Assembly: GCF_009900765.1 (NCBI RefSeq)
Contig: NZ_JAAABL010000002.1
Span: 186,001 to 250,000, forward strand
Length of the DNA stretch: 64,000 bases
Direction: 5' to 3'
DNA from: Rhodovarius lipocyclicus
Lineage (GTDB): Bacteria > Pseudomonadota > Alphaproteobacteria > Acetobacterales > Acetobacteraceae
The stretch's first letter is position 1, and every line of letters begins with the position of its first letter. Below the pieces are notes generated by a model. It made no database searches and was not told where the DNA came from. It was given only the letters and a program-made list of their open reading frames with translations. The translations under genes were made by a program, and so were the position numbers. Below, piece by piece: positions 51,988-53,501 of this stretch.

Positions 51988-52377
51988 ATGGCACAGGAAC
52001 GTCTCTTTACCGGTATCGCCAAAGGGGCGGCCCGTCAGGCCGGCAGGCCCTGGGCCTTCATGCTGGCGCTGGGCATCGTTGTTGTGTGGGGCATCACCGG
52101 GCCTGTCTTTGGCTATTCGGACACCTGGCAGCTCGTGATCAACACGGGCACCACCATCGTGACGTTCTTGATGGTGTTTCTGATCCAGAATGCCCAGAAC
52201 CGGGATACCGAGGCTCTGCATATCAAGCTGGATGAGTTGATCCGCGCCACCCATCGGGCGCGGAACAGCTTCATGTCGCTGGAAGACTTGAGCGAGAACG
52301 AGCTGGCGCAGATCCGGCGCCAGCTGGAGCAGATGCAGGAGGGCTGCAAACCCGGAGAGGTGCAGCCCGCCGGTTAG
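51988..52377 (+). CDS. Low-affinity iron permease family protein
   Basis: 129 residues. Two membrane helices (about 20-42 and 48-70; WAFMLALGIVVVWGI, GTTIVTFLMVFLIQNAQNRD) followed by a helical tail with ALHIKLDELIRATHRARN, matching the bacterial low-affinity iron permease family (FET4-like). ATG at 51988 (MAQERLFTGIAK). Divergent from the deacetylase-like gene. Transport function is by homology only. Confidence 0.85.
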   Translation: MAQERLFTGIAKGAARQAGRPWAFMLALGIVVVWGITGPVFGYSDTWQLVINTGTTIVTFLMVFLIQNAQNRDTEALHIKLDELIRATHRARNSFMSLEDLSENELAQIRRQLEQMQEGCKPGEVQPAG

Positions 52378-52421
52378 ATCATCATCTGATCGGATAAAGA
52401 TGATCGTGAAAACAAATACCT

Positions 52422-52461
52422 AGAGCGGTTGCCGTGAGCCGGTGCGAACGGAAACCGCTCT
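52422..52461. repeat. 40-base hairpin, probable extragenic palindromic repeat
   Basis: AGAGCGGTT (52422-52430) pairs with AACCGCTCT (52453-52461), and inside it CCGT pairs with ACGG. AGAGCGGTT-type palindromes are, as I recall, common dispersed intergenic repeats in alphaproteobacteria; no second copy is seen here. A smaller hairpin, ATCATCT (52381-52387) / AGATGAT (52398-52404), follows the permease stop. Confidence 0.55.
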
Positions 52462-52462
52462 G

Positions 52463-52578
52463 GTGTCCTGATTCCGAAATCCCTCGGATTTCGTTCTCAG
52501 GCCACCAGCCTGTGTTTTCAGTGGCCTGCTGATCCGCTGCGTCCGCGGGAGATCCCGCGAACTTCGCGGGCAGGACAC
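52463..52578. other. Three-hairpin element closed by an outer 8-base stem
   Basis: Outer arms GTGTCCTG (52463-52470) and CAGGACAC (52571-52578) enclose three perfect stems. These are CGAAATCC/GGATTTCG (52475-52482, 52486-52493), CAGGCCAC/GTGGCCTG (52498-52505, 52521-52528), and CCCGCGAA/TTCGCGGG (52554-52561, 52563-52570). An alternative CGCGGGA/TCCCGCG (52544-52550, 52553-52559) competes with the last. The whole can fold as a cloverleaf-like structure; its right end touches the stop codon of the methylisocitrate-lyase-like gene. It could be a mobile-type repeat, a structured RNA or a transcription end signal. Confidence 0.6.
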
Positions 52579-53501
52579 TAGCTGCGCTGGGGCATGCCCG
52601 TCGGGATCACGGTCTTCACCAGGCTCGCATCCAGCTCCTCGTACTTGTGGTAGCCGATGGTCTCATACAGCTCCGCGCGGGTCTGCATGCGGCCGATGGC
52701 GTTGTGGGTGCCGCCCTCGGCCTTGATCTGGTTGTAGAGGCCTTCCATCGCCTTGTTGGCGATGCGCAGGTGCGACACCGGCCAGATCACCATGGAGTAG
52801 CCGAAATCCTGGAATTCCTGCGCTGTGAAGAAGGGCGTGCGGCCGAACTCGGTCATGTTCGCCAGCAGCTTCACGCCGGGCATGCGCTTGGCGAACTCGA
52901 TGAACATCTCACGCGTGGTCAGGGCCTCGGGGAAGATGGCGTCGGCGCCGGCATCCAGATAGCGCTTGGCGCGGTCCACGGCGGCATCCATGCCCTCGCT
53001 GGCCACGGCATCGGTGCGGGCGATGATGTACAGGTGCCGGCGGGCCTTGCGGGCGGCGGCGACCTTGGCCGCGAACTCATCCGCGCTGGCCAGCTTCTTG
53101 TCGTTCAGGTGGCCGCACTTCTTGGGCAGGTTCTGGTCTTCCAGCTGCACGGCGCCGGCGCCGGCATCCTCGAAGCAGCGGACCATGTGCATGACGTTCA
53201 GCGCCTCGCCATAGCCCGTGTCGCCATCCACCAGCGTGGGCAGCATGGAGGCGCGCGCCACCTGGCGGACATGGAAGCACACATCCTCGATGGTGATCAT
53301 GCCGAGGTCGGGCAGGCCCATGGTGGCCGACATGGCGGCGCCGGACAGGTAGAGGGCCTCGAAGCCCGCCTTCTTCGCCAGCAACGCGGCGATGCCCAGA
53401 TGCGCGCCGGGCATCTGCAGGATCTGCGGCCGCTCCAGCAGCGCGCGGAAGCGCTCGCCGGCGGGCAGATGGGGCAATTCGTCGCCGATCACATAAGGCA
53501 T
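52578..53501 (-). CDS. Isocitrate lyase/PEP mutase superfamily, methylisocitrate-lyase-like
   Basis: 307 residues. TIM-barrel with the lyase active-site motif NLPKKCGHLNDK (KKCGH, cf. KRCGH with the catalytic Cys of isocitrate/methylisocitrate lyases), DGDTGYGEALNVM for Mg binding and IIARTDAVASEG. The presence of Cys argues for a C-C lyase (methylisocitrate lyase, PrpB) rather than a phosphonomutase. ATG at 53501 (MPYVIGDELPHLP). Downstream of an antiporter gene by 19 bases; prpC/prpD are not in the window. Confidence 0.87.
   Translation of the reverse strand: MPYVIGDELPHLPAGERFRALLERPQILQMPGAHLGIAALLAKKAGFEALYLSGAAMSATMGLPDLGMITIEDVCFHVRQVARASMLPTLVDGDTGYGEALNVMHMVRCFEDAGAGAVQLEDQNLPKKCGHLNDKKLASADEFAAKVAAARKARRHLYIIARTDAVASEGMDAAVDRAKRYLDAGADAIFPEALTTREMFIEFAKRMPGVKLLANMTEFGRTPFFTAQEFQDFGYSMVIWPVSHLRIANKAMEGLYNQIKAEGGTHNAIGRMQTRAELYETIGYHKYEELDASLVKTVIPTGMPQRS

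Follow-up and report, generated by a model that had tools for sequence, protein, structure and literature searches.

Repeats of the CIR, Bru-RS and RIME types have been known since the 1990s, and the mechanism by which they spread has not been established. The CIR repeats of Caulobacter are said to go back to Chen and Shapiro in 2003, Bru-RS1 and Bru-RS2 of Brucella reportedly to Halling and Bricker in 1994, and the RIME elements of rhizobia—intergenic mosaic elements, to go by their name—reportedly to Osteras in 1995. These CcrM-associated intergenic repeats, from Caulobacter and Brucella, are described as intergenic, about 110 bp long and built of two arms and a linker, with TA at the ends, GANTC at or partly in a terminal loop, and a mobility left unexplained (PMC2229807). 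Bru-RS elements are palindromic repeats of 103-106 bp, suspected to be hot spots for an insertion sequence with a YTAR target (PMC2266754, PMC10800456). Two other kinds of element bear on what follows. One is the REP or GTAG-tagged palindromes that go with RAYT, of which a survey reports the CGTC class missing from Acetobacteraceae (PMC3733652). The other includes IS630, which prefers TA in CTAG (Tenzen and Ohtsubo 1991, as cited in PMC2170065), and MITEPsy1, which is small, carries no gene and duplicates CTAG or YTAA (PMC3189936).

Here, we have concerned ourselves with one short structure: what is a 116-base, strongly folded sequence doing between two convergent genes? An initial annotation of the window (the whole stretch of DNA that was analysed, 64,000 nucleotides) had picked it out at 52463-52578 as a cloverleaf-like element that could be a non-autonomous repeat, a structured RNA or an attenuating switch. 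We argue that it is a copy of a small element, both mobile and repeated, of acetic-acid-type bacteria, a new relative of known alphaproteobacterial repeats and not a new riboswitch. More specifically, we take it to be, with good probability, a palindromic repeat of MITE-like and non-autonomous kind, two hairpins with an A-rich linker, which inserts at the TA of a CTAG-like target and in doing so comes to be seated on stop codons.

The arms are as exact as was claimed. The outer repeat GTGTCCTG/CAGGACAC (52463-52470/52571-52578) encloses the stems CGAAATCC/GGATTTCG, CAGGCCAC/GTGGCCTG (52498-52505/52521-52528) and CCCGCGAA/TTCGCGGG (52554-52561/52563-52570), and the competing pairing CCGCGGGA/TCCCGCG is there as well. 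The impression of an order beyond random also survives, for on either strand the folding energy lies beyond that of every one of 200 dinucleotide-shuffled sequences (z -4.4 for plus, -6.6 for minus). The limits need widening: the arms do lie within 52463-52578, but the natural element, which we call B, is the 122 nt from 52460 to 52581 on the minus strand, with CTAG-like sequence at both ends. Its arm 1, CTAGTGTCCTGC...GCAGGCCACTG, occupies 52519-52581; its arm 2, CTGGTGGCC...GGACACCAG, an inverted repeat, occupies 52460-52508; and between them (52509-52518) lies a linker, AAAACACAGG in this copy and AAAACAAAGG in the consensus of the aligned copies, all on the minus strand.

Element B is not alone. 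Through one CTAG-like junction at 52460-52463, a degenerate CTAG that reads CTGG on one strand and CCAG on the other, it is fused to a second two-hairpin repeat, element A, on the plus strand at 52374-52463, with the plan TTAG-arm-linker-CTAG-arm-CTGG. The fused pair fills the space from one stop codon to the other where two genes converge, a position that the initial annotation had right. On one side is a low-affinity iron permease gene (PF04120; 51922-52377, plus strand, with a putative start from the ORF list), whose TAG stop at 52375-52377 lies in the outer TTAG end of A. On the other is a methylisocitrate-lyase-like gene of the PEP_mutase/ICL family (52578-53501, minus strand). That the structure ends on a stop codon had been noticed, and so it does: the TAG of the lyase-like gene, 52578-52580, is contained in the terminal CTAG of B at 52578-52581 on the minus strand. 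At gathering thresholds, Rfam models matched only two tRNAs in the whole window, and a search of a plasmid collection returned one weak match, to element A only.

Is the fold then a cloverleaf? In the window copy, the same arms can also form two separate hairpins, one at 52519-52581 and one at 52460-52508, joined by the A-rich linker, and the apical stems are common to both folds. When 16 copies are compared, 97.5% of cells are paired and 10 pairs are doubly changed under the two-arm fold, against 95.3% and 8 under the cloverleaf. Across 76 distinct copies, the two-arm fold pairs 95.8% of cells, with both sides changed in 24 of 42 pairs and 191 double-change cells against a shuffle mean of 57, a count reached in none of 500 shuffles. 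Because this larger alignment was itself fitted to the two-arm fold, the helices that tell the two folds apart weigh most. The basal helix of arm 2 shows double changes in 9 of its 11 pairs (52 cells), the outer helix of the cloverleaf in 2 pairs (5 cells). The central helix of the cloverleaf gave not one compensated pair; of the 76 copies, 38 fail to pair at 58-104 and 29 at 61-101. The window copy adds a case of its own: inside arm 2, CTGGTG and CACCAG have changed together and still pair, at the cost of the outer stem. The comparison of copies thus supports two hairpins on the minus strand, joined by a linker, as the favoured fold, and leaves the cloverleaf unsupported; given the distinguishing helices and the CTGGTG/CACCAG change, it is best read as a by-product of arm feet that are alike in sequence. 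In another copy (L184, G137:C27), arm 2 has gone from CTAGTG/CACTAG to CTACTG/CAGTAG, so that pairing is kept while the very sequence of the terminus is altered.

Copies are dispersed. A DNA search found the 124-base element at nine places in the window's own genome, six of them full length, and in 8 of 60 genomes of a sample of relatives that includes this genome. A covariance model, R1, built from 16 copies, reached 60 of 200 sampled genomes of the family, and a 289-genome sample of the class added no more than 6 others; the copies are related to each other, so these counts are not independent, and the genomes under G handles are drafts. Even the distant copies (e.g., L314, L318, L322 and L323) share the layout CTAGTGT-arm-linker-CTAGTGT-arm-CTAG, their arms differing considerably in sequence. 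Among members from other alphaproteobacterial families we noted distant relatives of 165-170 nt (L318, L319, L321 and L322) with two long arms that start with CTAGTGT or nearly so, the second arm carrying GATTCCGAA/TTCGGAATC. The copy count and covariance model that had been proposed as checks therefore gave dispersed copies and compensatory changes in place of a single-copy sequence. A chance or mutational palindrome, present once and without function, has essentially no probability left: copies in tens of genomes, and their covariation, refute it.

The same copies speak to the proposal of a cis-acting structured RNA or attenuating switch, in which alternative stems would control a flanking gene. 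The fold is indeed strong, the cloverleaf and the two hairpins are mutually exclusive in the window copy, and the pairs show a single-strand asymmetry, to which we return. Against this, copies sit at or past the ends of genes in many and different flanks, and we saw no fixed placement beside any one functional kind of gene, as a riboswitch or attenuator would have; the orthologous locus of Rhodovarius crocodyli lacks the element; and the cloverleaf central helix is the helix without compensatory change and with two pairs often broken. In the window, moreover, the element lies 3' of both convergent genes, and a search for intrinsic terminators gave only two weak candidates, both on the plus strand, and none on the minus strand. 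We consider a switch very improbable.

How did the element arrive? The nearest named relative at the window locus is R. crocodyli (97% protein identity), which puts the host among the Acetobacteraceae, close to Rhodovarius. The orthologous locus of R. crocodyli has neither A nor B: the convergent genes overlap in their stops, TGATCA, with nothing between them, where the window has about 200 bases. Such empty sites, all of them comparisons with related species and not with strains, are clearest at three other loci. Two copies of the element (L018 against its empty relative L220, and L003 against L273) and a solo arm (L125 against L282) lie between two CTAGs where the relative has a single GTAG or CTAG. 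Because the empty relatives show one (C/G)TAG and the filled loci two, insertion, as read from these alignments, duplicates either TA or CTAG, the two not being told apart. Four further junctions (L117, L184, L181 and L186) have empty sites that are not clean enough to define a duplication, and at L117, L186 and the window the relatives carry TGA and not TAG, so that a duplication there assumes stop-codon turnover. Own-genome and relatives' copies, empty sites and target duplication support the suggestion of a non-autonomous repeat. B has these features of a MITE: inverted termini, no coding capacity (at 122 nt it is too short for a transposase gene) and a target-site duplication against an empty site (L018, L003 and L125).

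Stop codons are where many copies sit. On the left side, the coding stop falls exactly at the element's terminal TAG in 21 of 42 copies (one of them TAA), a set defined by a high-GC3 coding stop anywhere from 200 bases upstream to inside the element, with stops called by ORF length and GC3 and not from curated gene models. On the right side, the coding stop falls exactly at the terminal TAG position in 8 of 29 copies (one TGA). The remaining stops are scattered, with no further position used more than twice. Both window genes end within element ends, the lyase-like gene in B and the iron permease gene in the outer end of A. As the first base of the element after TA is G, a copy that goes in at the TA of a stop restores TAG.

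We picture an element that moves, or once moved, by entering a CTAG-like target at its TA and leaving either TA or CTAG duplicated, with the enzyme presumably supplied in trans. A copy landing in a stop codon's TA would regenerate TAG and, because the stop is rebuilt and the upstream protein stays intact, stop codons would be a tolerated and often used site, with the hairpins left in the 3' untranslated region.

Once there, might the hairpins do something? Neutral mutation in double-stranded DNA should leave G-U and A-C mismatches in equal numbers. Read on the minus strand, the copies have 131 G-U cells and 43 A-C cells (one near-constant U-G pair excluded); counted by column, the excess is 27 to 5 (p about 1e-4, with columns taken as independent). 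Because this excess departs from neutral equality, the fold appears to be constrained as a single strand in the minus orientation, either as RNA or as DNA read by an enzyme; hairpin recognition or a role of the RNA could be the reason. We also considered sense-strand C-to-T deamination as the source of the G-U excess and rejected it, since A-to-G change in A-U pairs gave rise to many of the G-U cells. Of the claim of a structured RNA, then, the structural constraint stands, on the minus-strand two-hairpin fold, for a single strand that may be RNA or DNA.

It is possible, but in our view rather unlikely, that the hairpins are kept for a role at mRNA 3' ends (exonuclease protection or transcription end), in the manner of REP sequences and after insertion; this would be compatible with a mobile origin. 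The G-U excess lies on the sense strand, as this role would have it, the structured strand in the window is the sense strand for the lyase-like gene, and among stop-seated copies the structured strand is sense in 21 and antisense in 8 (p 0.024). That bias is weak, and part of it could come from what adjoins the copies on the right, element A for example. Most copies, besides, are not stop-seated, their presence among relatives is sporadic, the two terminator-like sites have weak tails and lie on the plus strand, and a transposase recognising one DNA strand would produce the same asymmetry.

Which enzyme, then, could have moved the repeat? By analogy with the CTAG preference of IS630 and the duplications made by MITEPsy1, the simplest mover would be a DDE enzyme acting in trans. 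We found no parent insertion sequence with TAGTGTCCTG ends in the host genome or the relatives searched, and no IS630-type DDE_3 gene (PF13358) in the host genome; in four relatives, the DDE_3 genes have no TAGTGTCC ends, and convergent CTAGTGTCCTG ends at 0.7-3 kb do not occur. One genome, G105, has IS630-type transposase genes adjoining B copies (L254, about 850-1030; L270; L271). The insertion sequence at L254 was examined as a parent and set aside, as it appears to have inserted at, and to begin from, a B copy's terminal CTAG and is thus a neighbour, much as has been reported for IS711 and Bru-RS. A REP-like element moved as single-stranded DNA, by a hairpin-recognising RAYT or an IS200-type Y1 transposase, would account for the imperfect palindromes, the tetranucleotide foot (CTAG, in some copies GTAG), the modular solo and double units and the strand asymmetry; we nevertheless judge it improbable, as the host genome, at 98.9% completeness, has no Y1 (PF01797) transposase or RAYT gene and the target duplication that we see is unexpected under such a mechanism.

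Element A and its kin show how such pieces combine. A DNA search places the 90 bases adjoining B at more than ten places in the host genome. A complete A (L008, about 1456-1565) has two hairpins, a GTGAAAACAAATAG linker, CTAG junctions and GAATC in the loop of arm 1; compared with it, the window A has a shortened arm 1, part of which is lost. About 24 of 78 B copies have their right CTAG in common with a CTAGAGC element, so that junctions shared as in the window recur in many copies of relatives. Single arms of B occur alone at L125, L128 and, judged by end spacing, G023:C85. The repeats, in other words, are a modular family joined at CTAG. One genome (G095, L160-L173) is crowded with mosaics of CTAG-joined hairpins: its CTAGTGTCCTG ends number 67 when only perfect ones are counted, and CTAGAGC repeats of several families adjoin one another. 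Elsewhere (L178, about 601-738; L203; L202) the linker or arm 1 is tandemly duplicated, which suggests slippage or recombination between arms.

What does one more family of repeats teach us? It contributes many covarying copies, empty sites pointing to TA or CTAG duplication, insertions that peak right on stop codons and a structure constrained on one strand; the mover of such repeats, and a role at mRNA ends, become directly testable. It also carries a warning: in Alphaproteobacteria, a strong fold between genes can turn out to be a repeat of this sort where a riboswitch might have been suspected. A bolder thought, which we hold to be doubtful, is of a widespread alphaproteobacterial family of two-hairpin elements that prefers TAG stops and rebuilds them, is moved by an undescribed enzyme and is selected as sense-strand 3' UTR structure. 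If that were true, the family would supply ready-made gene ends across genomes.

Set beside the systems with which we began, B shares with REP/RAYT palindromes a short tetranucleotide foot on a palindrome, high copy number and an intergenic position, and differs in being longer, in having two arms and a target duplication and in a host genome without a Y1 transposase. With elements of the IS630 and IS5 types it shares insertion at CTAG, duplicating TA (IS630 type) or four bases (MITEPsy1), but no parent insertion sequence with its ends turned up. Arms joined in mosaics at CTAG would resemble RIME elements, a likeness by description only. Element A aligns end to end with the full Rfam model RF02600, the Brucella sRNA BASRCI27, as hairpin, GAAAACAAA linker and hairpin, at 26.1 bits against a gathering threshold of 59.8 (E 6e-4); this below-threshold match, which concerns A and not B (B has no RF02600 match of its own), would place A near the Bru-RS, CIR and RIME repeats. 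Among 14 controls the same model matches Caulobacter vibrioides and no other, so the link to CIR by sequence is indirect, CIR1-4 having been compared by description only. Full A copies also have GAATC in the arm 1 loop (L008). Element A works like repeats of the CIR/Bru-RS type and probably belongs with them. B resembles the CIR in its two arms, each a long inverted repeat, and their linker, its TA termini, occurrence in several alphaproteobacterial genera, size (122 nt against about 110 bp), many copies and intergenic position. Unlike the CIR, it has matching outer ends, and its GANTC, found in 55 of 78 copies where 28 would be expected, lies in the stem of arm 2 (50 of 78) and not in a terminal loop. 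Element B works like the CIR and Bru-RS repeats and, because its GANTC sits in a stem, we do not file it as a CIR.
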